Source: an uncultured Methanobrevibacter sp.
GTDB taxonomy: Archaea; Methanobacteriota; Methanobacteria; Methanobacteriales; Methanobacteriaceae
NCBI RefSeq assembly: GCF_946408925.1
Contig: NZ_CAMJUE010000015.1
Span: forward strand, 1 to 36,049
DNA length: 36,049 nt
Direction of reading: 5' to 3'
Program-made: the position numbers and the translations under genes
Notes under the pieces: generated by a model
Databases searched by the model: none
Told to the model about the DNA's origin: nothing
The model's input: the letters and a program-made list of their open reading frames with translations, nothing else
Shown: positions 1 through 16,412 of the stretch, one piece after another
Position numbering within the stretch: position 1 is the stretch's first letter
Layout: each line of letters starts with the position of its first letter

Positions 1-153
1 AATAGAATTAAGAAGAAATAAAAATAAATTCATCAGTTAAATTTTTTACACTAACCATTTCGAGTCTTGAAATTAAAACAGAGAAACATGTCAGAAATGA
101 GGTTTTAAATCTTAAAGGAAAATCTGATATTATTTTTAATGGAGTTATTTCAA

Positions 154-1239
154 TCATTTCAGACTTAAAGTCAATGTCACATCCCCTGAACCTAAAATAT
201 TTCTCAATTCATTGGCTGTAACTTTCTGTACCTTACCTAATCTTGTATATTCCCATGAGTTGGACCTGTAAAACAGAGAAATCTGATTTCCATCATACAA
301 TACAATATCTCCAGGAGAAGTGGAAATGTATTTGTCACTTGCAGGAAGTGAGAATCCCAGGTATCCGACCTTTTCAAATCCTCCATATTCATCAGCATTA
401 ATTTTAATGTTTCCTTTTTTCAACTTGTTGAAGAGTTCATCAGCGGCCTTATTATTCGACAGCCTAACATCCAATGTGTGTCCATTGACTTTTAGCTTGA
501 TATGTTTATCACCATCAACCGTTTTAATGCTGCTTTTTGCAGAAGCCTTCCTGATTTTGGAGGTGGCCTTAACATTGACTGTGACCTTATGGATTCCTTT
601 CTTCAGATTTTTAGTGTTGATACTTACAGCTCCATCCCTATTGGTTTTAAGAGAATACTTATGATATTTTTTTCCAGTGTAGACTTTCATTAAAACTCGT
701 ATTCCTTTCATTGCTTTATTTGATTCCTTATTTTTAATGAATACTTTGAATTTCTTATTTTTCTTATAATCATGAGTTATTTTTGGAGCGGAAATTTTTA
801 ATTTTGCCTTTGAGATTTTAACAGTGGTTGTTTTGGTTTTGGTAGAATATTTTTTGGCATCTTTAACAGTGACGATAATTTTATGTTTGCCTATGCTTAA
901 TTTTGACGCGGAATATTTGGCGATTCCGTTAGAATCACTAGTCAAAGATACTTTCTTATATTTTTTACCGGTGTAAACCTTTAAAAGCAGTTTAACATTG
1001 CTTAAGGGTTTATTGGTTTTGCTGTCGACCGCCTTAACTTTAAAATTCTTGCCTGAATCGTAAGTGGTGGATAACTTTTCGGGAACTAAAACAATGGAGT
1101 GAGGTCTCTCGAGATTATCATCATGACTCAATGACATGTCGCTTGAATTGCCATTTTCTTCAGCACAAACTGCCGAAATGGTTAAAAAACATGACATTAT
1201 CATTATCAGCAAGATATATTTTTTATTAAATATTTTCAT
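154..1239 (-). CDS. Secreted Ig-repeat protein with C-terminal cyclophilin-like domain
   Basis: This 361-residue protein starts with a classical signal peptide: lysines near residues 6-7, a hydrophobic core at about 8-24, and likely cleavage after Ala26. Two Ig-like beta-sandwich repeats follow, at about 48-145 and 148-240. Each carries the near-identical stretch KVYTGKKY, so they arose by internal duplication. Both are very lysine-rich, as is usual in Methanobrevibacter adhesin-like proteins. The last ~115 residues (from about 247) match the small bacterial cyclophilin-like fold (Cyclophil_like family): a start like IKLKVNGHTLDV, a central GDIVLYDGNQISLFY, and a closing LGSGDVTLTL. It is therefore a surface or secreted protein, and its ligand is unknown. 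It lies 43 bases downstream of purA, separated by T-runs on the coding strand that could end the purA transcript. The signal peptide and repeats are seen directly. The cyclophilin-like call rests on recognising the family pattern. Confidence 0.75.
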   Translation of the reverse strand: MKIFNKKYILLIMIMSCFLTISAVCAEENGNSSDMSLSHDDNLERPHSIVLVPEKLSTTYDSGKNFKVKAVDSKTNKPLSNVKLLLKVYTGKKYKKVSLTSDSNGIAKYSASKLSIGKHKIIVTVKDAKKYSTKTKTTTVKISKAKLKISAPKITHDYKKNKKFKVFIKNKESNKAMKGIRVLMKVYTGKKYHKYSLKTNRDGAVSINTKNLKKGIHKVTVNVKATSKIRKASAKSSIKTVDGDKHIKLKVNGHTLDVRLSNNKAADELFNKLKKGNIKINADEYGGFEKVGYLGFSLPASDKYISTSPGDIVLYDGNQISLFYRSNSWEYTRLGKVQKVTANELRNILGSGDVTLTLSLK

Positions 1240-1282
1240 GTTAATTTAATTCCTAAAATGTAAAAAAATAGTTAAAAAAGAA

Positions 1283-2302
1283 TTATAATAATTCTTTTCT
1301 TAAATCGATTGTGTCCTTAAGGTCAGGCCCGGTTGAAATAATAGTTACCGGAACACCTGTTTCGGTTTGAATATCTTCAATGAACTTTTTAGTTTCAGCA
1401 GATAACTCATCATAGTCCTGTACACGTGCACAGTCAAACAGCCTGTCAACACAGGTCAATGCAATTTGTGTTGCACCGTTGATTCTGCAGGATTCCTTTG
1501 CAAGTTCCATGTCAAAATAACCAATTCTTCTGCGCCTTCCGGTCACTACACCATATTCTTCAAGACCTTTGCTTTCTGCCTCTTCCTGTGTCATTTCGGT
1601 TGGGAACGGTCCTTCTCCAACACGGGAAATATAAGACTTGAATACATTGATGACTTCATCTACTTTAGTTGGTCCGACACCGACATCCGCCGCAAAAGTT
1701 GATGCTGTGGTGTCTTTACTTGTTACGAATGGATAGGTTCCATAGTAAAGTGAAAGAGCAAAACCTTGTGATCCTTCAATGAATACATCTTCACCATTAT
1801 CAATTGCCTCATTTACTGCAACGGACACATCGGTGATGTATTCCTCAAGTTCCGGTGAGTCTTTTGCAAGTCCGATTGTTCTCAGTACCCTGTCTGAATT
1901 TGCAGGCCCACATCCGGAACCTGTACTTCCAATCTTTTTGGCAAGGTGTTCTGAAGCCTTATCTCTTGACAGGTGGTCTTCAGTGATGATTGCACATCTT
2001 GGATCCACACACATTCTTTCTTTAATGTTATATTTTTTTAAGTTTTCAAATTCATTAAACAGTACATCAGGATTTACTAAAACTCCTGCTCCAATCATGA
2101 GTTTAGCATCGGTATGTACGAAACCGGATGGGGTTAATCTTAAACCGTATTTTTCTCCGTTAAATTCAACAGAGTGTCCTGCATTTGGTCCAACACCTGC
2201 ACGAGCGATTATATTTGGTTTATCATTGTCACAAAGGTAAGTAATACATTTTCCTTTACCTTCATCACCCCATGCTCCTCCAACTAAAATACTACAAGTC
2301 AT
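1283..2302 (-). CDS. purA: Adenylosuccinate synthetase
   Basis: PurA makes adenylosuccinate from IMP, aspartate and GTP, the first committed step of AMP synthesis, in the cytoplasm. The N-terminal GTP-binding loop [11 protein letters not shown] (residues about 8-18) is diagnostic. It is followed by the IMP-site stretch around [12 protein letters not shown], the switch-like [20 protein letters not shown], and the arginine-rich [11 protein letters not shown]. At 339 residues it is the short archaeal form, about 90 residues shorter than bacterial PurA. The ATG is preceded by AAGGAG with seven bases of spacing. It is transcribed alone, divergent from the histidine kinase gene. T-runs directly after the stop suggest termination before the downstream surface-protein gene. 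Confidence 0.97.
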
Positions 2303-2337
2303 CTAATAACTCCTTAAATATCAATATCTGAAAATTA

Positions 2338-2351
2338 ATGAAAATTTTCAT
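2338..2351. repeat. 14-bp perfect palindrome upstream of purA
   Basis: ATGAAAATTTTCAT is perfectly self-complementary. It lies 36 bases upstream of the purA ATG, near where its transcription should start. It could be an operator for purine control, but short AT-rich palindromes also arise by chance in DNA of this composition. Confidence 0.25.
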
Positions 2352-2395
2352 AACACTATTATTATATCATTAATTATTAAAAAGCTTTTGGAATA

Positions 2396-2403
2396 TTATA
2401 AAT
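2396..2403 (+). promoter_or_regulatory. Probable TATA box for the histidine kinase module
   Basis: TTATAAAT lies about 54 bases before the ATG at 2454. Transcription would start near 2426, leaving a short leader that contains the AGGT ribosome-binding site at 2444-2447. This is inferred from position and base composition only. Confidence 0.4.
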
Positions 2404-2453
2404 ATTATATCGAATAAAAATTTATACATATTTAAACTATTCAGGTAATTCAT

Positions 2454-4355
2454 ATGCATATTGAAAAACATTACAGAGAACTCGAAGATGTTGAAGAACT
2501 GCATATTTATAATATTAATAAAATTAACCTAGTCGAACAGGGAGCCCCGCAAGTTAAAAAACCTGAAAAAGTTCGGTTTAGCAATATTATGAAGCATGTA
2601 CCTTCAGACATTAATGTATTCCTGCCTGTCGATGATGGTGAAGACTACATCGTTGAAAGAATTGGATGGAATTTACTAGAAAGAACCAATATGAAACTGG
2701 AAGATGTTGAAGGAAGACTCTTAAGTCAGCTCTCACCATTTTACTATGAACACTTTAAGGATGCATTCAAAGAAGTTTATGAAACTAAAAAAACCAAAAA
2801 TATGAGAGTTTACTATCATATCAGCGACAAGGTCCACAGTCTTGCCAACATCAACATCCTTATTGACGAAGAAGAAATTTATGCAATTTCTGATTTTAAA
2901 AATACCGTTGAGGAATATAAAAGTCTCGAAGAACAGCAGCTTGAAGAGGAAGAAAACAAGGCAAATCTAATTGAATACTTTTCACAAACCGGAAGCTATT
3001 ATAAGACCCGTGGAGAGTTTACATGGACTCCCGGCATTTACAATATCATAAATCGTACCAGCGAACCGCAGGATCGCTATTACAACATCATTTTTGATTT
3101 GGTAATCCCGGAAGACCGCCCATTGGTTGAAGAACTGCTCCAGACAATGAGTCCTGAAACAGACACCTATGAAAATATCATCAGAATCAAGACCCCCGGC
3201 GGAAAAATCAAGTTTCTGGATACGTATTTATATTCCAAATTTGATGAAAACGGTGAGGAAATCAGCCATTACGGTTTGTTCAAGGATGTCAGTGTGGATT
3301 CACATAAGCACATGACACGACCGATTGATTTCATGCTGAACGGATTTAAACATAACTCCAAATTATCACTTTTAATCGAACCTTTAAGCAAACGCTATGA
3401 ATTCAGTGAGGGATTCTATGCAATGATTGAAGTTTCAAAACAGGACTATATCCACAGCACAGAAATTCTGGAAAATATTGTTGAAGAAAGTGCACGTGAA
3501 AACCTTTTAAAACTGATTCGTGGAGAAATCACTGAAGTAAATCAGATATTTACATATAATGTTAATGGAAAAGAGGAACACCAGAAAATCTGTGAACTGT
3601 TTATTGAAAGATTCAATTACGGTAACAAACAGCACAGTATCGGATTTTTAACAGACATCACAATTCCACGCCAAAAGCAGCAGGAACTGGCGAAATCCAA
3701 TGCCGATAAAAACATTCTGATTAAAGAAGTTCACCACAGGGTTAAAAACAACCTGCAGGTTTTAAACAGTTTCCTGAACCTGGAACGCCGTGCATATAAA
3801 GACAATCCAAAACTTATTCTGGACAATATGCAGGCACGTTTAGCCTCACTGGCCCTTTTGCATGAAAAGACCTATAATACCGAAGATTTCGTTAACATCA
3901 ATCTTAATGATTACATGCAGGACCAGGATGAAACCTTAAAAACACTGTTTGTTGCAAAACATATTGACTTTACAACAGACATTGATCCTAGAATTCATTT
4001 ATCAATTGAAGTTATTACTCCATTGTTACTTATTGTTGATGAATTGACAATGAATGCAATAAAGCATGCATTTCCAGATGAAAATATGCCCAACAAAACA
4101 ATTTCAAAAGAAATTAGGCTCATTGATGACAACATTTGCGAATTCATCCTACAAGATAATGGAGTTGGACTTGGAAGTCCTGAAACTCTAATCAATCACA
4201 ATTTGGGATGGGAAATTGTGAACAATTTAACAAGACAGATTAATGGAAAGATAGAAATTTTAGACTGCGATGTGGGAACAGGATTTAGATTAATATTCCC
4301 AACAAGTTTTGAATATTCACTTGAAGAGTATCAAGAAAATGAGGAGGAGGTGTGA
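2454..4355 (+). CDS. Soluble PAS-domain sensor histidine kinase (HisKA_2 type), copy 1
   Basis: A 633-residue kinase without transmembrane segments, so a cytoplasmic sensor. The order is an N-terminal PAS-like region (about 35-150), a PAS/PAC domain (about 168-280), a third PAS-like domain (about 289-402) ending in GFLTDIT, a short helical linker, a HisKA_2 dimerisation/phosphoacceptor motif EVHHRVKNNLQ (His427/His428, the second aligning with the phosphorylated His), and a HATPase_c domain. The ATPase domain has the N box DELTMNAIKHAFP (about 524-537), DNGVGLG (about 568), and an atypical second glycine motif LGWEIVNN where this family usually has LGLxLV. It shares its architecture and much of its sequence with the next gene. 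The stop codon overlaps that gene's start region, implying translational coupling. The signal it senses is unknown. The likely phosphate acceptor is the receiver at 6325. Confidence 0.9.
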   Translation: MHIEKHYRELEDVEELHIYNINKINLVEQGAPQVKKPEKVRFSNIMKHVPSDINVFLPVDDGEDYIVERIGWNLLERTNMKLEDVEGRLLSQLSPFYYEHFKDAFKEVYETKKTKNMRVYYHISDKVHSLANINILIDEEEIYAISDFKNTVEEYKSLEEQQLEEEENKANLIEYFSQTGSYYKTRGEFTWTPGIYNIINRTSEPQDRYYNIIFDLVIPEDRPLVEELLQTMSPETDTYENIIRIKTPGGKIKFLDTYLYSKFDENGEEISHYGLFKDVSVDSHKHMTRPIDFMLNGFKHNSKLSLLIEPLSKRYEFSEGFYAMIEVSKQDYIHSTEILENIVEESARENLLKLIRGEITEVNQIFTYNVNGKEEHQKICELFIERFNYGNKQHSIGFLTDITIPRQKQQELAKSNADKNILIKEVHHRVKNNLQVLNSFLNLERRAYKDNPKLILDNMQARLASLALLHEKTYNTEDFVNINLNDYMQDQDETLKTLFVAKHIDFTTDIDPRIHLSIEVITPLLLIVDELTMNAIKHAFPDENMPNKTISKEIRLIDDNICEFILQDNGVGLGSPETLINHNLGWEIVNNLTRQINGKIEILDCDVGTGFRLIFPTSFEYSLEEYQENEEEV

Positions 4356-4357
4356 AT

Positions 4358-6229
4358 ATGAAAATACATAAGGAGTATAGGAAATTAGAGCACATGGAGG
4401 AGGTCAGCATTTATGATGTTTACGAAAGCGAATTATATCAGCCGGCTGAGAAAAAATATGAGCTTGAAAAAATTCCTTTCCAAAAGATTATGAGCAACAT
4501 ATCAACAGACATAAATATTTTCATCCCATTTAGAGATGGAAATGACTTTATCATACATGGACTTGGATCAAATGTGCTTGAAAGGGGAAAAATAAGACAA
4601 GATGATGTTACCGGAAGATTATTGAGTGAATGTTCCCCGATGTTTCATAAACTTTTATATGAATCCCTGTTTGAAGTGTATAAAACCCATGAAGATAAAT
4701 ACATGAGATTTTTATATTATCAAAAGGATAAATTAGCACGTCTTACCAATGTTAAAATCATGTTTGAAATGGGAAGAGTATTTGTTTTAACAGACCACAA
4801 AGAAACAAACGAAAATACTTTCGTCATACCCGATGAAAAACGTGATGAGGATAAGGCCAATTTGATCGAATATTTCTCACAGACCGGAAGCTACTATAAA
4901 GTAAATGGAAAATATGCCTGGACACAGGGAATTTACAATATCATCAACCGTCAAAGGGAAGACACAGATGAAGATTACAATATCGTGTTTGAATTGGCAA
5001 TTCCCGAAGACAAGCCGTTAGTTGAAAAAATATTGAAATTGATGGACAGCGGCAAATCAACTTATGATGGTATTTTAAGAATTAAAACAGATGACGGCCA
5101 ATTAAAATATTTGGAAATCAATCTTTATGCTAAATTTGATAAAAATGGAGAATTATTGAGCCGTTATGGATTAATCAAAGATGTAACAAGAGATCAATCC
5201 GATCAAATCACACGCCCAGTCGATTTCCTGTTAAACGGTTTTAAAAACAGCAACAAACTGGCATTACTCATTGAACCTTTAAACCAAAAGCAATATGAAT
5301 ATAGTGCAGGATTTTACACCATAGTTGGAGAGGACAAGGAAACATACTCCAACAGACGTGCAATCATTGAAAACATTGTGGAACCGGAAACCGTTGAAAA
5401 CTTTAAAAAACTATTTAATCGTGAAATACATGAACTGGACGAAACTTTCACATACATGGTTAAAGGAGACCCGAACAACACAAAAACCTGCAATATAACC
5501 ATTGAAGTGTTTGAATTTGGTTCAGAGGAACACAGTATCGGATTTTTAACAGACATAACTGAAGATAGGGTTAAACAAAAGGAACTTGAAATAGCAAACG
5601 AACATCAAAAAGTTTTAATTAAAGAAGTTCACCACAGAGTTAAAAACAATCTGCAAATTCTAAACAGTTTCCTAAACCTTGAAAAAAGAGCATATAAAGA
5701 CAAACCAAATATCATTATAGACCATATGCAATCAAGATTGTCATCATTAGCGATATTGCATGAAAAAACATACAATACTACAGATTTCCAAAATATTAAC
5801 TTGGAAAGCTATATTAAAGACCAAGACGCCCAGCTTAGAACATTAATAGGTTTAAGGGACGGTATCGAATTTGAGTCACATGTTGACAGCACATTAAATC
5901 TGTCAATAGAAATTATCACACCTCTATTGCTGGTGATTGATGAATTGACAATGAATGCGATAAAGCATGCATTCCCAGATAAAACAAGACCAAACAAGAA
6001 GATTATAAAAGACATACAGATAATTGATGAGCACACAGCCCAGTTAACACTTAAGGACAATGGTGTAGGTATAAAAAATGCAAAGGACATATCTGCCAAT
6101 TTAGGATGTGAAATCATCAAAAATTTAACTAAACAGTTGGATGGAAGAATAGAACTGATGCACCCTGAAATTGGAACAGAATATAAATTAACTTTCCCTA
6201 CAACAATGGAACATACAATAAGTAAGTAA
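4358..6229 (+). CDS. Soluble PAS-domain sensor histidine kinase (HisKA_2 type), copy 2
   Basis: A paralogue of the preceding kinase with the same layout: an N-terminal PAS-like region, a PAS/PAC domain, a third PAS-like domain ending in GFLTDIT, HisKA_2 EVHHRVKNNLQ (His425/His426 from this start), then HATPase_c with DELTMNAIKHAFP and DNGVGIK. The second glycine motif reads LGCEII. There is no membrane segment. I chose the ATG at 4358 over an in-frame GTG at 4352 for two reasons. The GTG sits inside the ribosome-binding site GGAGGTG. The ATG start also aligns residue for residue with the start of copy 1 (MKIHKEYRKLE against MHIEKHYRELE). The PAS regions differ more than the catalytic core, suggesting different inputs feeding a shared output. 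Heterodimerisation is possible but is inference. Confidence 0.9.
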   Translation: MKIHKEYRKLEHMEEVSIYDVYESELYQPAEKKYELEKIPFQKIMSNISTDINIFIPFRDGNDFIIHGLGSNVLERGKIRQDDVTGRLLSECSPMFHKLLYESLFEVYKTHEDKYMRFLYYQKDKLARLTNVKIMFEMGRVFVLTDHKETNENTFVIPDEKRDEDKANLIEYFSQTGSYYKVNGKYAWTQGIYNIINRQREDTDEDYNIVFELAIPEDKPLVEKILKLMDSGKSTYDGILRIKTDDGQLKYLEINLYAKFDKNGELLSRYGLIKDVTRDQSDQITRPVDFLLNGFKNSNKLALLIEPLNQKQYEYSAGFYTIVGEDKETYSNRRAIIENIVEPETVENFKKLFNREIHELDETFTYMVKGDPNNTKTCNITIEVFEFGSEEHSIGFLTDITEDRVKQKELEIANEHQKVLIKEVHHRVKNNLQILNSFLNLEKRAYKDKPNIIIDHMQSRLSSLAILHEKTYNTTDFQNINLESYIKDQDAQLRTLIGLRDGIEFESHVDSTLNLSIEIITPLLLVIDELTMNAIKHAFPDKTRPNKKIIKDIQIIDEHTAQLTLKDNGVGIKNAKDISANLGCEIIKNLTKQLDGRIELMHPEIGTEYKLTFPTTMEHTISK

Positions 6230-6255
6230 TTGTTTATGACAAAACAAACGAATTA

Positions 6256-6315
6256 AACTATATATATAATTATATACAAATGTTTTAATGCTAGAAAAAT
6301 TAGATAAGATGTGGA
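6256..6315 (+). promoter_or_regulatory. Promoter and ribosome-binding site of the response regulator
   Basis: The 95-base gap after the second kinase holds a long TATA-like tract (TATATATAAT around 6260-6270) and GTGGAG at 6310-6315, nine bases before the ATG at 6325. The receiver gene therefore probably has its own promoter in addition to read-through from the kinases. Confidence 0.5.
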
Positions 6316-6324
6316 GATTGTAAA

Positions 6325-6735
6325 ATGAATGAAAGAATACTCGTTGTAGAAGACGAAGCAATTACAGCATTAGATTTAAAATACAGTTTAGAAGAATTAG
6401 GATATGAAGTAATTGACACAGTTGATACCGGACAAGCAGCTATTGACACCGCTGCAGAAAAAACCCCTGATGTAGTTTTAATGGACATTAAATTAAAAGG
6501 AGACATGGAAGGAATTGAAGCAGCAGAAGTAATTTCAGAATGGGACATACCAATTATATATTTAACTGCAAACACAGACACAGATACCTTTGAAAAATCA
6601 AATGTAAAAGGATCTTACGGATTTGTTTCTAAACCATACGACATCAACAAACTAGACAAAACCCTTAAAATTACAATCAACAGAGCTAAATTAGAGCAAA
6701 AAAAATTAAATGATGCTAGCGGGTTTACAGAATAA
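6325..6735 (+). CDS. Stand-alone response regulator receiver domain
   Basis: A 136-residue CheY-like receiver with all the catalytic residues: the acidic pair Glu9-Asp10 in ILVVEDE, phospho-acceptor Asp54 in LMDIKL, switch Thr81 in IYLTAN, and Lys103 in SKPY. The sequence after Asp54 (IKLKGDMEGIEAA) is the form common in methanogen receivers partnered with HisKA_2 kinases. There is no DNA-binding or enzymatic output domain. It must act by protein contact, as a phosphate relay, or as a phosphate sink. It follows the two kinases and lies seven bases before the receiver-like/glycosyltransferase fusion, so the glycosyltransferase is an obvious candidate target. That link is inference. Confidence 0.93.
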   Translation: MNERILVVEDEAITALDLKYSLEELGYEVIDTVDTGQAAIDTAAEKTPDVVLMDIKLKGDMEGIEAAEVISEWDIPIIYLTANTDTDTFEKSNVKGSYGFVSKPYDINKLDKTLKITINRAKLEQKKLNDASGFTE

Positions 6736-6742
6736 GATTTAA

Positions 6743-8488
6743 ATGACGGAATTAGAATTAATCACTGGAAAACCCAAAATCTTTACAATAAGCTCTGATG
6801 AAATTTCCCTGTCTTTAATAAAAGAATATGTTGAAGACTATGAATATGAATTTGCAGGCAGTGCATATGAAAAGGAAGATATTTTCAAAAAAATAGACGA
6901 AATATCTCCTAACCTCATTTTTTTAGACACAGAAATTGAAAATGTAAATTTAGAAAATTTAGCTGAAGATTTAGAACTTTTTAACGTTCCAGTATTGCTT
7001 ATTGTTGGAGAACTTTTTGATGAGACAATCGACAAGTTATTAATGAGCAATCCATTTGGATATCTGCTTAAACCAATAGAAGATGGGGAACTGCAAAGGT
7101 CAATGGCAGTTGCTATTAAAAAACATGAACAGAATATCATCAATGTAAAAACCGCCCAAGCCAAAATCCAGGAAAAAAACACAGAATTGGTTATTGAAAA
7201 GTCAGATTCAAGTTTTCTTTTAATTTTATGTGTTGCATTAATCATAATGGCAATTTTAACTAGAAATGCAACCTGGCTTCAATGGGTGCTTTTAATTCCA
7301 ACTGTAGCAATGCTTATAAACTCATTTTGCAGTATTAAAAAGCAAAAAGAAGTCACCCCTTATGCTGAAGAGGATTTACCATTCATAAGCATTTTTATAC
7401 CTGCACATAACGAAGAAAACACAATAGAATCAACAGTCAGAAGTGTCTGCAACTCAGAATATTACAAAGATGAAGATTATAATTACGAAGTAATTGTTAT
7501 TAATGACGGATCTACAGACAATACCGGTGAAATCTTAGCTGAATTAAAAAAAGATCTTCCACAGCTTAAAATTGTTACAAGACATCCTCCACGTTCAGGA
7601 AAAGGAAAAGGATTTGTTTTAAATGATGCACTGACCTTATCCCAAGGAGAGATAATTGGTGTTTTCGATGCAGATACACAAATCAAAACAGATTATTTGA
7701 CAACAATCGTACAATATCTGAATGGTGATATTGACGGAGTACAATCAAGAGTTAAAATGTTTAACCGTAATGAAAACTATCTGGCACGTATGCAACATGT
7801 GGAATTTGCAAGTTTTGGAAATACGCTAACTGCTAAAGACAATCTTGGAAGTACCGGATTTTTAGGTGGAAACGGACAATTCGTTAAAAAAGATGCTATC
7901 ATCAATTGCGGACGATGGGACGGATTTGCAGTTACTGAAGATTTAAATCTGGCTATTAAAATCATTCTTCAAGGTGGAAAAATACGATACTGCGGAGAAT
8001 GTGCAGTTTACCAGGAAGCAGTTACAGATTGGAGGGCATTTTTCAGGCAAAGAGTAAGGTGGGCGATTGGTAATTTTGAAACATTATTTATTTACCTGCC
8101 CCAGATTTTAAGGGCAAACATATCAATTCCAAAGAAATTTAATGTAATAGAGCACATTTCATTTTACAGTTTTAATCTGTTAATATTTTTTGGATTTTTA
8201 GTTACCATTCTAAATGCGATTTCATGGTTCATTTTCCATAATGTCACAATAATCAGAATGGAAGCGCCATTTATTGTAGGATTTTTATCCGTTATCTCAT
8301 TTTTCCCAGGAATCATAATTGCCCTTTCAAGAGATAAACCCTCCGCACAAGAATTTCTTAAAGATTTGATAAAATATTATATTTACTGTTTCCATTTAAT
8401 TCCATTGTTTTTCCTGACAATGAAAACAATGATGACAAGAAAAGAACGAAAATGGTCAAAAACTGAGCATAAAGGAGGTAAAAAATGA
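6743..8488 (+). CDS. Receiver-like domain fused to membrane GT2 glycosyltransferase
   Basis: A 581-residue fusion. Residues about 11-125 form a receiver-like domain that keeps the phospho-acceptor position Asp62 (LIFLDTE) and Lys110 (LLKPIE). The acidic pair is replaced by Ser17-Ser18 and the switch Thr by Val88, so it is probably a pseudo-receiver. After a charged helix come two membrane segments (about 155-172 and 177-195). Then a GT2 catalytic domain carries the full processive signature: Asp in INDGSTD (about 251-258), DAD (about 308-310), TED (about 396) and QRVRW (about 435-439). Three further membrane segments follow (about 473-498, 509-530 and 545-560). This is the layout of cellulose-, hyaluronan- or poly-GlcNAc-type synthases that polymerise a sugar and pass it through the membrane. 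The sugar cannot be read from sequence. No PilZ domain is visible. Confidence 0.9.
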   Translation: MTELELITGKPKIFTISSDEISLSLIKEYVEDYEYEFAGSAYEKEDIFKKIDEISPNLIFLDTEIENVNLENLAEDLELFNVPVLLIVGELFDETIDKLLMSNPFGYLLKPIEDGELQRSMAVAIKKHEQNIINVKTAQAKIQEKNTELVIEKSDSSFLLILCVALIIMAILTRNATWLQWVLLIPTVAMLINSFCSIKKQKEVTPYAEEDLPFISIFIPAHNEENTIESTVRSVCNSEYYKDEDYNYEVIVINDGSTDNTGEILAELKKDLPQLKIVTRHPPRSGKGKGFVLNDALTLSQGEIIGVFDADTQIKTDYLTTIVQYLNGDIDGVQSRVKMFNRNENYLARMQHVEFASFGNTLTAKDNLGSTGFLGGNGQFVKKDAIINCGRWDGFAVTEDLNLAIKIILQGGKIRYCGECAVYQEAVTDWRAFFRQRVRWAIGNFETLFIYLPQILRANISIPKKFNVIEHISFYSFNLLIFFGFLVTILNAISWFIFHNVTIIRMEAPFIVGFLSVISFFPGIIIALSRDKPSAQEFLKDLIKYYIYCFHLIPLFFLTMKTMMTRKERKWSKTEHKGGKK

Positions 8489-9114
8489 GACGGGAAGATA
8501 AGATACATGGAATACTGCTCATCATACTTATTATTTTTATTGCATCAAACATCAATGGAATCAATAGTTTTTTAAGTGTTCAGACAGATAAAACAATTGA
8601 TTTTGGACATAGTGTAACAGTTGTTCCGCAATCATGGAACACAACTGAAGAATTAAACCAAACCAATCAATCCAAAACTCCTCATGCGATTACTAACGAA
8701 TATGTATACATTGACCATTGGGATGACTGGCCTGAAGACCATATTACTTCAATCTCGGAAGCGAAATTTAGAGCAATGGAAGATGGAGGATATAAAGTTT
8801 TGAAAAACGACAATTCCACACTTAGTGGAGTTAAAGTTTCAAAACAGTATTTCTCAAATCCTTCAAGAAATAATGATAAAGTTTGGAATCATATTGGTGT
8901 GAGTTATGTATTCCCTAAAGAGGATACAAATTATGCAATACAGGTTCATTACTTCACAAGCCATGATTACAACAACTCCACTTTTATAAAAGAGGTTGAT
9001 GACCGTATTGAAGATGATATGAGCAACATCCATAACAATGAATTCAATGGATTCATATCAGCTGTGCAACATATCTACGAGATAATCATGCACAACCTGA
9101 ATAGACATCAATAA
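8485..9114 (+). CDS. Small membrane-anchored extracellular protein linked to the GT2 synthase
   Basis: 209 residues. An N-terminal hydrophobic helix (about 8-28, ILLIILIIFIASNI) is preceded by basic residues and followed by a hydrophilic domain with many Asn-x-Thr/Ser sequons, so the bulk should face outside. The domain begins with a strand and VVPQSWNTTEE and later has a Gly-Tyr-Lys/Ser-Gly-Val-Lys pattern. This is weakly reminiscent of PsbP/DcrB-like extracellular domains of methanogens. No catalytic motif is visible. The ATG overlaps the synthase stop (ATGA) and has AAAGGAGGT upstream, so it is translated with the glycosyltransferase. It probably acts at the cell surface on or beside the synthase. 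The specific function is unknown. Confidence 0.75.
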   Translation: MRREDKIHGILLIILIIFIASNINGINSFLSVQTDKTIDFGHSVTVVPQSWNTTEELNQTNQSKTPHAITNEYVYIDHWDDWPEDHITSISEAKFRAMEDGGYKVLKNDNSTLSGVKVSKQYFSNPSRNNDKVWNHIGVSYVFPKEDTNYAIQVHYFTSHDYNNSTFIKEVDDRIEDDMSNIHNNEFNGFISAVQHIYEIIMHNLNRHQ

Positions 9115-9115
9115 T

Positions 9116-9154
9116 TAATAGATATTTGAAAAAAAAGTAATTAAATATCTATTA
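9116..9154. terminator. Hairpin between convergent genes
   Basis: A 12-bp inverted repeat (TAATAGATATTT at 9116-9127 pairing with 9143-9154) surrounds a 15-base A-rich loop just after the stop at 9114. A T-run follows at 9163-9167. A third partial copy of the arm occurs at 9167-9175. Its place between convergent genes suggests a bidirectional transcription end. Confidence 0.5.
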
Positions 9155-9193
9155 AACTTATATTTTTAATAGATACTAGATTAATGAGCTAAA

Positions 9194-9787
9194 TTATTTT
9201 TTGGGATACATCAACGGATGATTTTCACACATCGGATCTTTAATAAGGTTTCTTTTCAAATGATAATTTAAAAAATAAAGCATCCATTCATTAGAAAGTT
9301 CCCTTAAAGAAGCATCGTCAAGCCGTTCAAATGGAGTGAAAAAGTCCATCTGGTTTGCACCAACGACAAATGCAAGTTCCTCTGTTTCAACCAGCATGAA
9401 AAAGTCATTGCGAATATTATGTATATTGAAATCTTCAACCAAGGAAACAGTTTTTTCACTTTTAAAATTATAAAAAAATGTATTCAAATATTCAAAATCA
9501 ATGAATTTAATATCTTTAATCTTAAAAAACACTTCTTCACTAAGCAATTGATGGTCATAATTATATTTTGATAAAAAATCAATATCCCAGATATTATTGT
9601 AGAAAACAGTGAAAAATGAATCCCCCGCAAAGCGCACAGTCAATGACATTTCCTCATTTGATTTGGGTTTTCCAAGCTCCACATCTTTAAATTCTATATA
9701 AATTGAATCATGAGCAATTTCTATTAAAGTCCATTTTCCTGAATTGATTATCACATCACGTATTAATTTTAAAGATCTTACATTCAT
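9194..9787 (-). CDS. Hypothetical protein, last gene of the dapL operon
   Basis: A 197-residue soluble protein with no signal peptide or membrane segment. I do not recognise a family. It is rich in aromatic and acidic residues and looks like a mixed alpha/beta domain. The ending is His/Asn/Pro-rich (CENHPLMYPKK). The start ATG overlaps the stop of the gene before it, and its ribosome-binding site AGGTG lies in that gene's last codons, so translation is coupled. As the fourth gene behind dapL it probably works with the two genes in front of it. Confidence 0.7.
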   Translation of the reverse strand: MNVRSLKLIRDVIINSGKWTLIEIAHDSIYIEFKDVELGKPKSNEEMSLTVRFAGDSFFTVFYNNIWDIDFLSKYNYDHQLLSEEVFFKIKDIKFIDFEYLNTFFYNFKSEKTVSLVEDFNIHNIRNDFFMLVETEELAFVVGANQMDFFTPFERLDDASLRELSNEWMLYFLNYHLKRNLIKDPMCENHPLMYPKK

Positions 9788-10389
9788 TTTAACACCTGAT
9801 TTTTAGTAAAAACATTATATGCCCCTTCAATTTCATATTCTTTTTTATCATCATAGGATTTATCCCATATAAATGGATTAATTTCAATTTGGTTGTTAAT
9901 ACTTTCATCCCAAATAACCGTGAAAGATTCATCTTTTAAAGTTTCAGAAACGATTTTACCTATCTCTAATGCTTTCGATTCGTTATTTTCAAAATCTCCA
10001 AAGGTGATTTTTAATTTTTTTTCAAAAATTGCATCTTCAACATCCTCGAAAGTATAAAAACAAAATCCCTGAGCATCAAACTTATTATTTAACAAGTGCA
10101 CCTGCAATTCAAAAGCATCCCCAACTCCTTCCCGGATATCATAACCGCAATTATGAATGGCGACAATTCCATCTGAAGAAAGTTTAGCAAAAGCTCTTTC
10201 GAGTTTAGAGAAGTTTTCATTTGAAGAGTCATTTAAAGAGATATTGAATTGGGAAAAATCTATTTCCTCATCAATAAACTGATCTTCCAATATCTCAACT
10301 ATTTCTTCAGCACTAAAAAATCCTGATTTAGTGAGCAAATCAATCATGAAATCAATTTCATCCATCAAATCAGGATCAATATTACTCAT
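9784..10389 (-). CDS. DUF6891-like protein
   Basis: 201 residues, cytoplasmic. The N-terminal helix pair (DLLTKSGFFSAEEIVEIL) and the later GFCFYTFEDVEDAI, followed by a leucine- or isoleucine-rich strand, TFGDF and FTVIWDESINNQIEI, match the pattern I associate with DUF6891: a 'can read a residue against a date/flag' type domain of unknown function in bacteria. The biochemical role is unknown. It overlaps both neighbours by four bases (ATGA type), a sign of a co-translated set. Family assignment is from memory of the motif pattern and needs a profile search. Confidence 0.65.
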   Translation of the reverse strand: MSNIDPDLMDEIDFMIDLLTKSGFFSAEEIVEILEDQFIDEEIDFSQFNISLNDSSNENFSKLERAFAKLSSDGIVAIHNCGYDIREGVGDAFELQVHLLNNKFDAQGFCFYTFEDVEDAIFEKKLKITFGDFENNESKALEIGKIVSETLKDESFTVIWDESINNQIEINPFIWDKSYDDKKEYEIEGAYNVFTKNQVLK

Positions 10390-11078
10390 TGTTCATCTTC
10401 TCCAAACATTATAATACGTGTTACATTACCCCTTTCGGTAAAACCTGCCATAACTCTGCTTTCACCAATTTTTGCAAGTGCAAAATCATCATGAGGTTTG
10501 AAGCCGTATCCTTTAAGTTTAGTGTAAGATTCAAATGCAATTTTAGGATAAATATTAAAATTCTTTTGGAAAGTGTAAAAGGTGTCCCTGAATTTTTTAA
10601 CTGAATTATTTTCCTTAACCAAGTCTGATTTGATTAATACAAAAATATCCAAACCTTCTTCGGAAACCCCGTAATATCCATCCATGCCCAAAATGCCTAT
10701 TGCAGTCATTGCCAAGGTATGACAGTCATTGAAATCTGCATGTAAAAGTGGTGAGGTAAATTCAAGAATATCATATTCTTCACCAATTGATTTAATTTCA
10801 TTTGCAGATTTGATTAAGTCTTTTCCAAAAATATCTTCATTATCCCAAGCCCATGACCACTGTTTGGAGTCTTGCATGTAAAATCCTAAAATTTGAACCG
10901 GCAATTCAAAATCTCCAAAGGACACTATACCTTTTTCAATATCTAAATCACCAATGCTTTCACCAATTAATTCTGATATATTTTCTTGCTTGTCTAAAGC
11001 TAAAGCACCATATTTTGATAATAATATTTTAAAAGAATCTCCCTTTTCAATTTCAACTGGTTTCTCTATTATTTTCAA
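10386..11078 (-). CDS. DUF6882-like protein (TTG start)
   Basis: 230 residues, cytoplasmic. The central QWSWAWDNEDIFGKDLI, followed by a helix and a later FNDCHTLAMTAIGILG, matches the DUF6882 pattern (a WxWAWxN signature). Its function is unknown. The first codon is TTG, set six bases after the ribosome-binding site AGGTG. That site overlaps the stop codon of dapL, so dapL and this gene are co-transcribed. No in-frame ATG gives a credible alternative start. The next gene begins within its stop codon. Confidence 0.7.
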   Translation of the reverse strand: MKIIEKPVEIEKGDSFKILLSKYGALALDKQENISELIGESIGDLDIEKGIVSFGDFELPVQILGFYMQDSKQWSWAWDNEDIFGKDLIKSANEIKSIGEEYDILEFTSPLLHADFNDCHTLAMTAIGILGMDGYYGVSEEGLDIFVLIKSDLVKENNSVKKFRDTFYTFQKNFNIYPKIAFESYTKLKGYGFKPHDDFALAKIGESRVMAGFTERGNVTRIIMFGEDEQ

Positions 11079-11087
11079 TTATAACAC

Positions 11088-12323
11088 CTAAAATTTTAAA
11101 TTTGAAATTCTGTCCATTGCCTCTTTGGTATTTTCCAAGGTATTGAATGCAGTTAATCTTAAATAACCTTCACCACTTGGACCAAATCCTGAACCTGGAG
11201 TTCCAACAACATTAGCTTCATTTAATAATATATCAAAGAAATCCCAAGAGTCCATGTTATTTGGAGTTTTAACCCAGATATATGGTGAGCTTACACCACC
11301 ATAAACCTCTAATCCGATGTCGGTTAAACTTTCACGAATTATTTTCGCATTTTCCATATAATAATCAACAACTTCTTTAATCTGTTTTTGACCTTCAGGA
11401 GAATAAGTTGCTTCGGCAGCTCTTTGAACCGGATAGGAGGCCCCATTAAATTTGGTTGTTTGTCTTCTGTTCCATAATGGATTGATTTCAACTTCATTAC
11501 CTTCAGAATCGAATCCTTTTAATTCTTTTGGCACAACAGTATATGCACAACGGGTTCCTGTGAAACCTGCTGTTTTTGAAAAGCTTTTGAATTCAATAGC
11601 AACTTCTTTTGCCCCTTCAATTTCATAAATTGAGTGAGGTACATTTTCTTCATTAATGAATACTTCATAAGCTGCATCAAATAAGATTACTGCATTATTT
11701 TCACGAGCATAATCAACAAATACTTTAAGCTGGTCTTTAGTTAATGTGGTACCTGTAGGATTGTTTGGATAACATAAATAGATTATATCAACAGGTTCTG
11801 ATGGCAATTCAGGAGTGAAATCATTTTCAGCATTGCATTTAAGATAAGTTAAACCTTCATACATTCCGTCATCACCCATCTCACCGGTTCTTCCGGCCAT
11901 TACATTAGTATCCACATATACGGTATATACCGGATCAGTTACAGCGATTTTATTATCAATTCCAAAAATTTCCTGAATATTACCGGTGTCACATTTAGCA
12001 CCGTCACTGATGAACACTTCGGAAGTATCAAGATCTATTCCATATTTGTTATAATCATTTTTGATAATTGCTTCAGCTAAAAATCCGTATCCCTGTTCAG
12101 GACCATATCCCATGAAAGTTTCACCGCTGCCCATTTCATCAACTGCATTTCTAAATGCTTCAACAACAGCAGGGACTAATGGTTTTGTCACATCCCCGAT
12201 ACCCATTTTGATAATATCTGCATCAGGATGGTTCTTTACGAATTCTTGTTCTCTTCTGGCCACCTCTACAAAAAGATAGCTGCTTTTTAATTTTAGATAA
12301 TTCTCATTGATTTTAACAACCAT
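11088..12323 (-). CDS. dapL: LL-diaminopimelate aminotransferase
   Basis: DapL transfers an amino group from glutamate to tetrahydrodipicolinate, giving LL-diaminopimelate in one step of lysine synthesis. It is the route known for Methanobacteriales. The 411-residue fold-type I PLP enzyme shows NPTGTTLT, the PLP lysine Lys250 in [14 protein letters not shown], and the N-terminal [10 protein letters not shown] typical of the DapL subgroup. [16 protein letters not shown] lies near the end. The ATG follows GAGGT with six bases of spacing. It heads an operon with three poorly known genes. TATA-like sequence lies at about 12350-12378. Confidence 0.95.
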
Positions 12324-12629
12324 GATTAAACCTCATAAATATTAATCTAATTTATATTATATTTTTGAAATATATAAAATGAATGATTGTTAAAAAATTA
12401 CCATTAAGCAAAAAATTATTTAAAAATATACCATTTAACCATATCATTGATAAAAAATATAACTCTATTAAAAAACCTTATTATTGGAAATTATTTATCC
12501 CTAATAGTTTATACGTGATGTCTTTAATTAAAGCAAGTCCCATTATTCTTGATTACTCCAACATGAAAATATTTAAATTAATGAATAGGACATAAATATA
12601 TATAGACTAAATAAGGGTTGGGAAAAACT
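12324..12629. other. AT-rich intergenic region between divergent genes
   Basis: About 300 bases between dapL (minus) and the acidic membrane protein (plus). It holds TATA-like tracts for dapL near 12350-12378 and, at 12594-12605, AAATATATATAG for the plus-strand gene. A 70-codon open frame at 12383-12595 lacks a ribosome-binding site and is not credible. I see no RNA gene or repeat. Confidence 0.6.
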
Positions 12630-14087
12630 ATGAATATGATAACCATTTTAATTTGGATTACTATTGCAATAATCGCTGCAATAGCTATAATAACAGTTAA
12701 ACTATATTTTAAAGGCGATGAACTAGAACACGAAGAAGGATCAATACTTCCAAATACAGAAGATCTTAATAAAGCGTTGAATATTGGAAAAAATAAAATT
12801 ACTTCAAAAAATAATAGTCAAACAACAAATGCCCCACGTAGTTTATCTCCAAATATGCCTCAGCATAACAACAACCACAACTTATTTAGAAAAAATCTTG
12901 GAACTGAAAGCAAAAATGAAGCATATATTGTTCCTGAAGTTAAAAATGACAACTTACAAAATTATGAATACGAATCTCAAAATCAAGTTTTAATAAATTA
13001 TGATAATACTGTTGAAAAATTTCAAGAACCAATTAAACAAAACCAGATGGATATTATGACTCAAAATAACAACGAATCAAGTGAATTAAAAGATTTATTT
13101 ACTATTGATGAATTAATCAAAGAATCTAAAAGAAAAGACACTGAAAGAGAAAAAGAATCACAGAAAATTAAAAAAGATGAAGAAGATGAGGAATTAATTG
13201 AAATAAAAGAAAGTATTAAAAATAAAACCCCTGAACCATTAATTGAAGAAGTTATTGATGAAAATAACGAAGAAAAGATTAGTGATATAATCGGTGATGA
13301 GAAGGACACTGTTAAAAGTGAAACACCTTCAGTTGCTTCACAAAAAGATATTGATGAAGCAATATCAACAGCTTCAAAAGAAACTGAAGAGACCGTTGAA
13401 AGCATTTCTGAAGATAGAGACATCACTGATGCACTATTGAATCCTGAAAAAGAAGAAATATCAGAACCAACTCTTAAAACACCTAATAAAGTTGTTGAAA
13501 CTACTGATTACAAATTAGGAGCATCCATTGATGAATCTGACTTATTTAAGGATGAAGAAGATGACATAATGGACTTGGATTATAGAAAAGATTTGGACAA
13601 AGTTAAAAATAAAATCACCAGCTCCAAATTATTCCAGGATGTTAAAGAAAAACTCAATCCCGAACCTGTTGAAGAACCTCCTATGACTGAGGAACTTCAA
13701 AATGAGTATATAAGAAACGTTAATGAATATGAATATGAACCAATAATCAATGAAACACATGTAGACATTGATGATGGAACATATGAAGATTATCACAACC
13801 AAAAATTAAGGCAAGAAAACACAAGACGTGTGTTTAATTTGGCTAAAAATACACCGGAAACTCAACCCGACATGGGAGAAATAAAAAGTAAACCTGCAAT
13901 GGACAATATTAAAATCAATATAAACAACAATGAGGTCGTGCTTAAAAAAGGAGATGAAATTATCTTCAATCATGATGGTGAAACATACTCAAGTCAAGTT
14001 TATGCCATCAGAGGAGATGACATATCCGTCAGATACAGACGCAAAGACATTACCATCAAACCTAGTGATGTGAAAAAGATATACTAA
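12630..14087 (+). CDS. Single-pass membrane protein with long acidic region and C-terminal beta domain
   Basis: About 485 residues. One strong hydrophobic helix lies at residues 3-25 (ITILIWITIAIIAAIAII). Then come about 370 residues of low-complexity, Glu/Asp/Lys/Asn-rich sequence, predicted disordered with coiled-coil stretches (for example around ESKRKDTEREKESQKIKKDE). The last ~65 residues form a compact beta-rich domain (NNEVVLKKGDEIIFNHDGE ... ISVRYRRKDITIKPSDVKKIY) that resembles a small SH3/KOW-like barrel. No family is recognised. An upstream in-frame TTG at 12618 is unlikely, because the TATA box at about 12594-12605 places the transcript start near 12625. ATG 12630 (or 12636) would then be nearly leaderless. 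A cell-surface or division-scaffold role is possible but unproven. Confidence 0.8.
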   Translation: MNMITILIWITIAIIAAIAIITVKLYFKGDELEHEEGSILPNTEDLNKALNIGKNKITSKNNSQTTNAPRSLSPNMPQHNNNHNLFRKNLGTESKNEAYIVPEVKNDNLQNYEYESQNQVLINYDNTVEKFQEPIKQNQMDIMTQNNNESSELKDLFTIDELIKESKRKDTEREKESQKIKKDEEDEELIEIKESIKNKTPEPLIEEVIDENNEEKISDIIGDEKDTVKSETPSVASQKDIDEAISTASKETEETVESISEDRDITDALLNPEKEEISEPTLKTPNKVVETTDYKLGASIDESDLFKDEEDDIMDLDYRKDLDKVKNKITSSKLFQDVKEKLNPEPVEEPPMTEELQNEYIRNVNEYEYEPIINETHVDIDDGTYEDYHNQKLRQENTRRVFNLAKNTPETQPDMGEIKSKPAMDNIKININNNEVVLKKGDEIIFNHDGETYSSQVYAIRGDDISVRYRRKDITIKPSDVKKIY

Positions 14088-14101
14088 TTATCTTTAAACA
14101 T

Positions 14102-14215
14102 TACTCTTTTTTTATATTTTAATTCATTAAAAACCATACCATTTACTATTTGTTTATTACTTTTTGAATGTTGCCAAGCATTATGAATTATAGTAATTGA
14201 CTAAAAAAAAAGAGT
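14102..14215. terminator. Paired T-run terminators between convergent genes
   Basis: TACTCTTTTTTT at 14102-14113 terminates plus-strand transcripts, and its exact reverse complement (14204-14215) gives a T-run for minus-strand transcripts. The two form a 12-bp inverted repeat about 90 bases apart. Archaeal RNA polymerase terminates at such U-runs. Further A/T runs at about 14244-14252 may add a second minus-strand signal. Confidence 0.5.
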
Positions 14216-14267
14216 AGGGTAAAATACTAAAAATTTTATGCATTAAAAAAAAAGGAATGAAAATAAA

Positions 14268-14726
14268 TCATTCATGATTTATTCTATATTCACCATCTTC
14301 AACAATGTATTTAGGTACGCTGATTTTTAAGGATCTGATGATATTTAAATAAAAATCATCCAATTCCCTATCGGCATATGGGTATGTGAATTCAAATATA
14401 TAGAGATTACTATCCTTCACATATAAAAATTCATTACGTCTAATTTGAGTTTCGCCATCTGAAAAACTTGAAATGATCATATAGTAAATATCGTCATTTA
14501 TTGGAATAAAATCAGAATGAATAAGATTGATTCTATCATTATCCTTTAAGTTTTTCTCAATATCAGCACGGATTTCAGGCAAACCTGTGAGAGTGGGAGT
14601 TGTTGAAAACTTAATGGACATTGGAATTTTGGTATTCACTAAGTACAATTCCGTAAACTCATCTTTTGCATTAATCGGTTCAAAGTCTTTGGGCATTTGA
14701 AGAGATGAAAAACCGTTTGTAAACAT
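14268..14726 (-). CDS. Small DcrB/PsbP-like protein downstream of gltX
   Basis: About 152 residues, cytoplasmic as read, with no signal peptide. The pattern GFSSLQMPKDFEPI at the start, a long alternating-strand middle, and a final FYLNIIRSLKI resemble the DcrB/DUF1795-type fold found in many prokaryotes. Its function is unknown. An in-frame GTG at 14741 lies inside the ribosome-binding site AGGTGA, so ATG 14726 (or GTG 14732) is the likely start. The gltX stop codon overlaps that same ribosome-binding site, so the gene is read as the second cistron after gltX. Confidence 0.65.
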   Translation of the reverse strand: MFTNGFSSLQMPKDFEPINAKDEFTELYLVNTKIPMSIKFSTTPTLTGLPEIRADIEKNLKDNDRINLIHSDFIPINDDIYYMIISSFSDGETQIRRNEFLYVKDSNLYIFEFTYPYADRELDDFYLNIIRSLKISVPKYIVEDGEYRINHE

Positions 14727-14741
14727 AGTCACCTGAATCAC

Positions 14742-16412
14742 CTATTTATGTGCGAAGTAGAATATTAATTCATCGTCGGTTATTTCGTCAAGACGTGCAA
14801 AACCAACTCTTTCGAATTGAACAATATCTCCAACTTTTAATTCTTTAAGTGCAGATTCACCAAGACCTGTTTTGATTGAAGCGTCATCCATTACAATTTT
14901 TACATTAACATTTTCCTCAACAGGCACCCATTGAATGATTCTTGCTTTTAGTTCACGTGCTTCTTCAAAAGAAGCTGAATGGTATGTTACATCATCACCA
15001 TCAACCATGACATTAACTGCATCCATCAACCTGAATATGCCATTGTTGATATCGGATTTTGCAATATAAGCTTTTCCATCAAATGACAGATGACGATTTC
15101 CCCTGTCCTCATGGTCTGCATGCAGCGGTCTTTCGATATCCATTTTACCGTCTGAATAACCTGCAACTTCGATTAATTGAGGGTCTTCACAGAAGAAATA
15201 CCTATTTGCAATAGGCTCTAAAAAATTACGGTTTTGACCGTATATCTTTTTCCAGCTGATTGCGGAATCGGCCATTTTGACGCCTATTTCAATGATTAAA
15301 TCATAAATGGTTTTAGGCTGAATTCCCCTTCTTGCAATGGCTCTTAAAGTACCAAGTCTAGGGTCATCCCATCCTGAGTAAATGCCGTTTTCAATTCCCT
15401 CTTTTGCTTTTGAGGTACTGAGTGCAATATCCTCCATTTTTAATCTTCCATAGTGAATGTATTCAGGCACTTCCCATCCCATATGGTCATAGAGGTATTT
15501 TTGTTTCTCAGTATTTGCAAGATGGTCTTTTCCTCTAAGAACATGAGTCAAACCCATCAAATGATCATCAACAGCAACTGAAAAGTTCATCATAGGATAA
15601 ATTCTATATTTTGTACCTAAACGAGGGTGTTCTTCATCAACCAATCTCATTGCAACCCAATCACGAATTGCAGGGTTTTTATGATTAATATCGGTTTTTA
15701 CCCTTAACACTGCTTCTCCAGCTTCCATAGTATCGAATTTTTCCCATAATTCAAGATTTTCTTCAACACTGTTGTCCCTACATGGACAAGCCTTGCAATT
15801 ATCTTTAAGCTCTTTAAATGTTGCACCGTCACAGGTACACATGTAGGCTGCTCCTTTTTCAATTAATTGACGAGCATAATCATAGTAAATTTCAAATCTG
15901 TCTGATTGATAAATTATCTCATCAGGATTTACACCTAACCACTCCAAATCTTCAGGAATCATTTCATATGCAGGTTCAAATACCCTTTTTGGATCTGTGT
16001 CCTCAATCCTTAAAATCAACTTACCGTTATGTCTTTTGACATATTCGGCATTTGGAACTGCCGCTCTGGAATGGCCAATATGCAACGGTCCACTTGGATT
16101 TGGAGCAAATCTCAATACAATGTTTTCATGAGTTCCAGGAAGTTCCTGAAGACCTGTTTCTTTTACTTTAGGTTTTTTCTCCTGAACTTCAACGCCATAT
16201 TTTTCCATTTCACTGGCTTGCTGTTCAAGTGATAATGCATTGACTTTTGCCACAATTTTACCAGACATTGGACCGATTTCTTTAGCTCTGCTTCTAAGTT
16301 CCGGTTCATTAGACATGATTGAACCCATTACCGCACCGGGATTTGCAGACCCCTTATGTTTAGCAGCATTGAGCAGAGCATGTTTATAGATAATTTCTTC
16401 TAAATCATTCAT
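14742..16412 (-). CDS. gltX: Glutamyl-tRNA synthetase (archaeal type)
   Basis: Charges tRNA with glutamate. Archaeal enzymes of this type are usually non-discriminating and supply Glu-tRNA(Gln) to the GatDE amidotransferase. The 556-residue protein has an archaeal N-terminal helical extension (about 1-95). The class I HIGH motif follows as FAPNPSGPLHIGHSRA, then a Cys cluster MCTCDGAT...CKACPC that could bind zinc. The KMSKS-equivalent is ALSTSK, and the anticodon-binding part is an archaeal/eukaryotic GlnRS-like beta-barrel C-terminus. The start ATG is preceded by GTGATGATTAA. It is divergent from the aldo/keto reductase gene and shares its transcript with the small DcrB-like gene. Confidence 0.97.
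   Translation of the reverse strand: MNDLEEIIYKHALLNAAKHKGSANPGAVMGSIMSNEPELRSRAKEIGPMSGKIVAKVNALSLEQQASEMEKYGVEVQEKKPKVKETGLQELPGTHENIVLRFAPNPSGPLHIGHSRAAVPNAEYVKRHNGKLILRIEDTDPKRVFEPAYEMIPEDLEWLGVNPDEIIYQSDRFEIYYDYARQLIEKGAAYMCTCDGATFKELKDNCKACPCRDNSVEENLELWEKFDTMEAGEAVLRVKTDINHKNPAIRDWVAMRLVDEEHPRLGTKYRIYPMMNFSVAVDDHLMGLTHVLRGKDHLANTEKQKYLYDHMGWEVPEYIHYGRLKMEDIALSTSKAKEGIENGIYSGWDDPRLGTLRAIARRGIQPKTIYDLIIEIGVKMADSAISWKKIYGQNRNFLEPIANRYFFCEDPQLIEVAGYSDGKMDIERPLHADHEDRGNRHLSFDGKAYIAKSDINNGIFRLMDAVNVMVDGDDVTYHSASFEEARELKARIIQWVPVEENVNVKIVMDDASIKTGLGESALKELKVGDIVQFERVGFARLDEITDDELIFYFAHK

Follow-up and report, generated by a model that had tools for sequence, protein, structure and literature searches.

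Organization of the locus

We begin with a group of five genes on the plus strand of a 36,049-nucleotide stretch of DNA (the window; NZ_CAMJUE010000015.1) from an uncultured Methanobrevibacter sp., which together form a putative two-component circuit acting on a membrane glycan enzyme. The assembly is incomplete (2.3 Mb, 88% complete), and the window is its contig C15. The open reading frames (ORFs) confirm the module at 2454..9114 and, together with Pfam, agree with the initial annotation in finding two HisKA_2 histidine kinases (HK1 and HK2), a complete stand-alone receiver (REC), a receiver-like domain joined to a GT2 enzyme, and a protein with one transmembrane (TM) segment, all on one strand. 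The features are listed below (aa, amino acids; the basis is in brackets).

2454..4355, plus strand: HK1, soluble PAS-HisKA_2-HATPase_c histidine kinase, 633 aa (ORF, Pfam, hydropathy)
4352..6229, plus strand: HK2, tandem paralogue of HK1, 625 aa, GTG start (ORF, Pfam; 51% identical to HK1)
6258..6271, plus strand: AT-rich, TATA-like stretch between HK2 and REC (seen in 14 relatives too)
6325..6735, plus strand: stand-alone receiver REC, 136 aa (Response_reg, 4.5e-22)
6743..8488, plus strand: pseudo-receiver/GT2 membrane synthase, 581 aa (ORF, Pfam, structure model)
6776..7117, plus strand: pseudo-receiver domain, residues 12-125, REC2 by position (model, pocket columns)
7082..7336, plus strand: helix 114-173 (alpha5 into TM1) and second helix 177-198 (TM2) (model, hydropathy)
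7343..8449, plus strand: GT2 catalytic and membrane core (D255, DAD309, TED398, QRVRW436)
8450..8485, plus strand: C-terminal tail with invariant W571, K573, T574, H576 and G578 (alignment)
8485..9114, plus strand: anchored protein, 209 aa, TM 7-25, six N-x-S/T sites (ORF, hydropathy)

The genes had been described as joined by overlaps or very short gaps. This is true of three junctions (4-nt overlaps of HK1 with HK2 and of GT2 with the anchored protein, and 7 nt between REC and GT2) but not of the fourth, where 95 nt separate HK2 from REC. This longer gap holds the TATA-like stretch, a possible candidate promoter for the REC, GT2 and anchored-protein genes, although the surrounding DNA is itself AT-rich. 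REC and GT2 lie in the same frame at 2 of 7 loci checked; in the window, an in-frame or read-through fusion of the two was dropped as a reading in view of the 7-nt gap and the different frame.

The two kinases are HisKA_2 histidine kinases by their Pfam matches (HisKA_2 at 3e-17 in HK1 and 2e-16 in HK2, with PAS_3 and HATPase_c in both, the HATPase_c of HK1 at 24.7 bits being slightly below the cut-off of 26.4) and by the HHRVKNN, NAIKHA and DNGVG boxes that they have in common. Hydropathy gives no TM segment in either of them.

Receiver and pseudo-receiver

The stand-alone REC has the complete pocket that had been attributed to it (E9, D10, D54, T81 and K103), and thus the characters of a single-domain response regulator. 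The synthase matches PF00535 (4e-28) and PF13641 (5.5e-27), and its N-terminal part matches the receiver family PF00072 at 3.6e-6 and 27.6 bits, below the cut-off of 30.2 that some orthologues exceed. In the predicted model this part has the receiver-like beta-alpha order, with alpha5 continuous with TM1. Its pocket reads SSDVK instead of EDDTK, Ser-Ser replacing the acidic pair and Val replacing Thr; because the intact acidic pocket is missing, we file the GT2 protein as carrying a pseudo-receiver and not as a response regulator by itself.

The same division of labor is found across the split forms, in which REC and synthase are separate genes. The full residue set occurs in 0 of 30 internal receivers, whose phospho-Asp column holds Asp in 25 and Ser in 5, and the nearest separate REC (counted if shorter than 170 aa and within 3 kb) holds all five residues in 29 of the 30; at the remaining locus, L056, the ORF call missed the N-terminus of REC. 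Such a pairing of a phosphorylatable partner with a contact-only partner is the pattern that a hetero-contact of REC and pseudo-receiver would predict. The pseudo-receiver is under purifying selection and not drifting freely: the ratio of nonsynonymous to synonymous substitution rates (dN/dS) is 0.02-0.09 for it, 0.01-0.05 for REC and 0.03-0.05 for the GT core, in four ortholog pairs with dS near saturation.

Could the pseudo-receiver be a remnant that serves dimerisation or folding and plays no part in regulation, attached to a constitutive synthase? The loss of the full residue set from all 30 split forms would suit such a reading, as would L073, a long-branched GT2 of this family in which no receiver was found. 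The purifying selection, the modelled receiver-like fold order with its alpha5-TM1 helix, and the inheritance of kinases and intact REC together with the synthase all speak against it, and we consider it very unlikely.

Fused and split forms of the synthase

Relatives of the synthase were searched for in 150 genomes of the order and are present in many genera; a phylum search reached 151 genomes, one beyond the order search, and a protein search was followed for the best 120 of 6404 hits. Outside the lineage of the window, the synthase gene is often longer (706-801 aa) and starts with two receivers. This REC1-REC2-GT2 architecture accounts for 17 of 52 distinct GT2 domains, and in 15 of the 17 fusions the residue set is complete in each of the two receivers (the exceptions are L053 and L054). 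The window synthase is 38-40% identical to the deepest fused forms over about 570 aa. With its PF13641 output, its receiver-like domain and its common descent with the fused orthologues, it belongs to the REC-GT2 (MTH_548) family.

In the tree of GT domains, the split forms and L043 make up one clade of 31 rows (support 95/93), with every fused form outside. L043 is also split, since its full locus, L086, holds a separate REC of 137 aa. Also outside the clade are L055 (one REC), L073 and L076. This tree leaves out L013, which lies at a contig edge, labels L043, L073 and L076 as "other", and includes L069 and L070 as outgroup. A single split is the simplest reading of this tree. In the receiver tree, 15 split rows represent all split forms and L013, L073 and L076 are omitted. 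The cognate RECs, which are 16 of its 20 stand-alone ones, cluster there with seven REC1 domains that come from the nearest fusions (a group of 23 rows with support 91/93, which falls short of the star mark of that tree). The other four (L049_alone1, L052_alone0, L056_alone1 and L086_aloneB), extra receivers of their loci, fall apart from REC1. Moreover, the stand-alone RECs and the REC1 domains of the fusions end in the same tail, K-L/I-N-x-A-x-G-F. From this grouping and the common tail, the window REC is best understood as a REC1 that has become a separate protein, and the receiver-like domain as REC2.

Several loci show other arrangements. In L048 (G085, 1-7231), three genes on the other strand come after HK1-HK2-REC: a small HisKA_2 kinase, the anchored protein and a fused REC-REC-GT2 paralogue. 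This paralogue stands in place of the split synthase, as though one version had taken over from the other. In L086 (G069, 130-9823), the series is HK-REC-HK-REC-synthase-anchored protein, and the synthase, at 1396 aa, has a long N-terminal extension. L071 (G041, 6966-16760) is a decaying locus, with the GT2 in two pieces in different frames, the HK1 counterpart fragmented with another ORF between its pieces, and the REC and HK2 counterpart open.

Receivers and kinases across the genomes

If REC has one target, how many other receivers does the cell contain? We surveyed PF00072 over 67 genomes of the genus, 33 with the synthase (a match of 2.0e-128 or better, which includes the fragmented or broken genes of G041, G058, G064 and G066) and 34 without it. 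Receivers are found in 35 genomes, namely all 33 that carry the synthase plus G073 and G081, so that 32 of the 34 genomes without synthase have zero receivers. The receivers of G073 and G081 sit on contigs with GGDEF and are perhaps foreign. All detected receivers lie at the synthase locus in 28 of the 33 synthase-bearing genomes. In 21 further genomes, every receiver is at the synthase locus in 9 of 9 synthase-bearing members of related genera, and 6 of 6 relatives without synthase have none; G031 has an anchored-protein fragment and two receivers, and five Methanobacterium-like or deeper genomes have 4-25 receivers, where the single-locus pattern fails. In G043, a genome in a single contig, the module accounts for two of the three HisKA_2 kinases and for both of the two receiver domains, one with the full residue set and the other a pseudo-receiver.

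These counts bear on the view that the receiver serves as a phosphate sink, or has some other protein as its target, with gene order reflecting shared expression only. The available text of Galperin et al. (2018, PMC5847659) expects stand-alone RECs to engage in various contacts with proteins, and the TATA-like stretch before REC would permit separate expression. A sink, however, requires a second active receiver, and for most of these genomes the survey found none. The receiver is covalently joined to the synthase in relatives, and the stand-alone REC groups with REC1. We regard this alternative as unlikely.

HisKA_2 is present in 33 of 33 synthase-bearing genomes of the genus versus 4 of 34 without the synthase (Fisher 5e-15, kinship ignored); in G094, one of the four, an HK1-HK2 pair is ended by the contig edge. 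The neighborhoods were counted with purpose-built profiles over 52 rows, one per distinct GT2 domain with its best flank. Of the 32 split loci, 29 have a HisKA_2-type kinase within 2 kb of the synthase (the exceptions are L013, L083 and L084), as do 6 of 17 fused loci. As separate observations, two HisKA_2 kinases but no receiver domain were found in G040, a 99% complete genome, whose kinases thus have no visible partner; and beside the fused paralogues of L046, L047, L048 and L050 a HisKA_2-type protein of 200-206 aa, too short to fit a PAS region, adjoins the anchored protein. The short protein of L046 matched HisKA_2 and gave no HATPase_c match at E 0.001 (Pfam).

The initial annotation proposed an alternative to control by cyclic di-GMP (c-di-GMP) and PilZ, and the survey fits it: PilZ is found in 0 of the 67 genomes of the genus and is absent from the Pfam matches of the synthase, and GGDEF is found in 5 of the 67. 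A c-di-GMP link of the synthase was dropped on these counts.

Product of the synthase and the anchored protein

The label of processive polymer synthase fares less well. The motif set (D, D, D, QxxRW) is complete and is accompanied by a GT2-membrane core fold; this core fold is also that of PcManGT, so motif set and fold cannot decide for a processive polysaccharide synthase. The polymer reading is weakened by VIA-align, whose best match is the archaeal mannosyltransferase PcManGT (6yv7), in rows spanning model residues 171-568, which hardly test the receiver part and exclude no receiver family. It is a serious possibility, somewhat short of even, that the regulation is as proposed and the enzyme puts one or a few sugars on a lipid carrier or membrane lipid, as in glycolipid or N-glycan assembly. 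Three observations stand against this. BcsA chains head the Foldseek ranking by E-value (1.6e-18, with PcManGT at 2.2e-15); the best curated sequence model is that of the poly-N-acetylglucosamine (PNAG) synthase PgaC/IcaA (9.5e-40), though far under its cut-off; and the invariant C-terminal tail, which extends beyond the PcManGT alignment, sits where the gating loop of BcsA starts. By this position the tail is a gating-loop candidate. Membership of PgaC/IcaA itself was rejected, as the NCBIfam equivalog cut-off of 422.3 bits is missed at 136.8. We infer that the product is a cell-surface or lipid-linked glycan.

The anchored protein is probably extracellular. It has no Pfam family at cut-off, a profile search of PDB sequences with it gave no match at E 1, and its AlphaFold2 model, from an alignment of 24 close rows, has a predicted local distance difference test (pLDDT) score of 48.4. 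It adjoins the synthase in 31 of 32 split loci and in 5 of 17 fused loci. Of the 150 genomes searched in the order, 40 contain it, and 38 of these also have the synthase; the remaining two are G046, with a GT2 remnant, and G031. Gene overlap and this co-occurrence, as the basis, suggest that it is a partner of the synthase. In G046, a single contig of 1,853,160 bases, an intact anchored protein stands alone beside purA with the short GT2 remnant (L077, 8259-8873), and no receiver or HisKA_2 match was found in the genome; the module seems to have been lost there.

Genomic setting

The module is flanked by purA on one side and by three genes without an assigned function and then dapL on the other, those four on the opposite strand. 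The three (9194-11078, minus strand) comprise one gene without a Pfam family, DUF6891 and DUF6882, and the block before dapL is kept in 15 of 15 loci in a close-pattern scan of named genome contigs. Since the gene order between purA and dapL is repeated in other genomes, the arrangement is more than chance. The named loci matching the window synthase are all Methanobrevibacter, several of them from goat or roe deer gut. Elsewhere on the minus strand, the window encodes a Big/cyclophilin-like protein (157-1239) and a protein with Big and DUF4015, a putative glycosyl hydrolase (21717-23246).

A model for the circuit

Combining the natural fusions, the loss of the REC2 pocket under selection, the locus-bound receivers and the absence of PilZ, we propose that phospho-REC most likely acts on the pseudo-receiver of the synthase. 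We judge it likely that the path from kinases to REC to pseudo-receiver to GT2 synthase is a two-component circuit whose one output is an enzyme. In this model, HK1, HK2 and a remote paralogue, HK3, all cytoplasmic PAS-HisKA_2 kinases, would phosphorylate Asp54 of the stand-alone REC. Phospho-REC would bind the pseudo-receiver, the former REC2, at the N-terminus of the GT2 protein, as REC1 did within one chain. The change would then travel along the alpha5 helix into TM1 and on to the GT2 core, and the synthase, with the overlapping-gene anchored partner outside, would make the glycan. Phosphotransfer, REC binding, helix transmission and the sign of the effect are predictions of the model. The broader proposal, that several soluble kinases feed one receiver and one membrane glycan synthase of the whole genome through the pseudo-receiver after the receiver split off, has in our estimate slightly better than an even chance.

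A number of observations weigh against this interpretation. The initial annotation expected the synthase always to neighbor kinases and a stand-alone receiver, which fails: the 17 fused orthologues hold the receiver in cis and 11 of them have no HisKA_2-type kinase inside 2 kb, and among the 32 split loci those of G065 and G078 have no HK1 or HK2 beside REC-GT2 (other HisKA_2 kinases lie elsewhere in both genomes), one more being cut by the contig end. G017 retains REC-REC-GT2 with a Thr-to-Ala change in REC1 and a damaged REC2 pocket, and its sole HATPase_c match is a 563-aa frame; such frames of 563-599 aa we take to be topoisomerase VI. This fused protein, with no kinase found, could reflect decay or a kinase-free use. 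The window pseudo-receiver retains Asp62 and Lys110, so a residual function of its own is possible. Extra receivers lie elsewhere in 5 of the 33 genomes of the genus (G054, G059, G064, G065 and G066). The REC-domain tree is weak, with 17 of 67 inner branches open and its bootstrap unsettled, the co-occurrence counts ignore phylogeny and include many incomplete genomes, and strongly degenerate receivers may evade PF00072. The original interpretation is thus supported in part. The REC1-REC2-GT2 fusions, a split that fits one event and the lack of other receivers in most synthase-bearing genomes of this group give good support to control of the synthase by a receiver acting via the fused receiver-like domain; the universal kinase and receiver neighborhood does not hold up, and polymer synthase is a candidate label.

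Comparison with known systems

The REC-GT2 and REC-REC-GT2 fusions are already known. The available text of Galperin et al. (2018, PMC5847659) tables REC-BcsA and REC-REC-BcsA for 13 Methanobacteriaceae proteins, with MTH_548 named, names just three genera of that family as having the fusion, and lists it without neighborhood, split or mechanism. Like those regulators, the window synthase is a PF13641-type GT2 of the same archaeal family with a receiver fusion; unlike them, it has REC1 as a separate gene, has lost the REC2 pocket, and has kinases and an anchored protein attached. Our search of the open-licence literature turned up no description of the split, of the pseudo-receiver, of a cluster with kinases and anchored protein, or of the single-output pattern. 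The closest parallel in mechanism is EpsW/EpsZ of Myxococcus xanthus, in which the stimulus to a membrane glycan enzyme comes post-translationally from a single-domain receiver in its phosphorylated state, direct contact being suggested by the authors' data (PMC12802240, available text). Our proposal likewise has a phospho-receiver controlling a membrane glycan enzyme. EpsZ, however, is an unrelated large monotopic phosphoglycosyl transferase of a bacterium, with a chemosensory kinase, whereas the target here is a GT2, and that text describes neither an ancestral fusion nor a pseudo-receiver. In contrast to BcsA and other c-di-GMP-controlled synthases, the window synthase has no PilZ match and has an N-terminal receiver-like input. 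PcManGT of Pyrobaculum calidifontis, placed by the title of its paper in N-glycan biosynthesis with a minimal cellulose-synthase-like fold, aligns from its own residue 2 to model residue 172, which leaves no space in it for a receiver.

DNA-binding outputs of the bacterial type are missing from most archaeal response regulators, and Galperin et al. infer that signalling proceeds mainly via protein contacts (PMC5847659, available text). Here, the partner of the receiver can be named from natural fusions, and genomes of the G043 type are simple enough for a reconstituted system to cover the whole pathway. If true, the circuit would be a c-di-GMP-independent control of a glycan enzyme in gut methanogens, and a single-output phospho-relay of a whole genome that targets an enzyme instead of genes.
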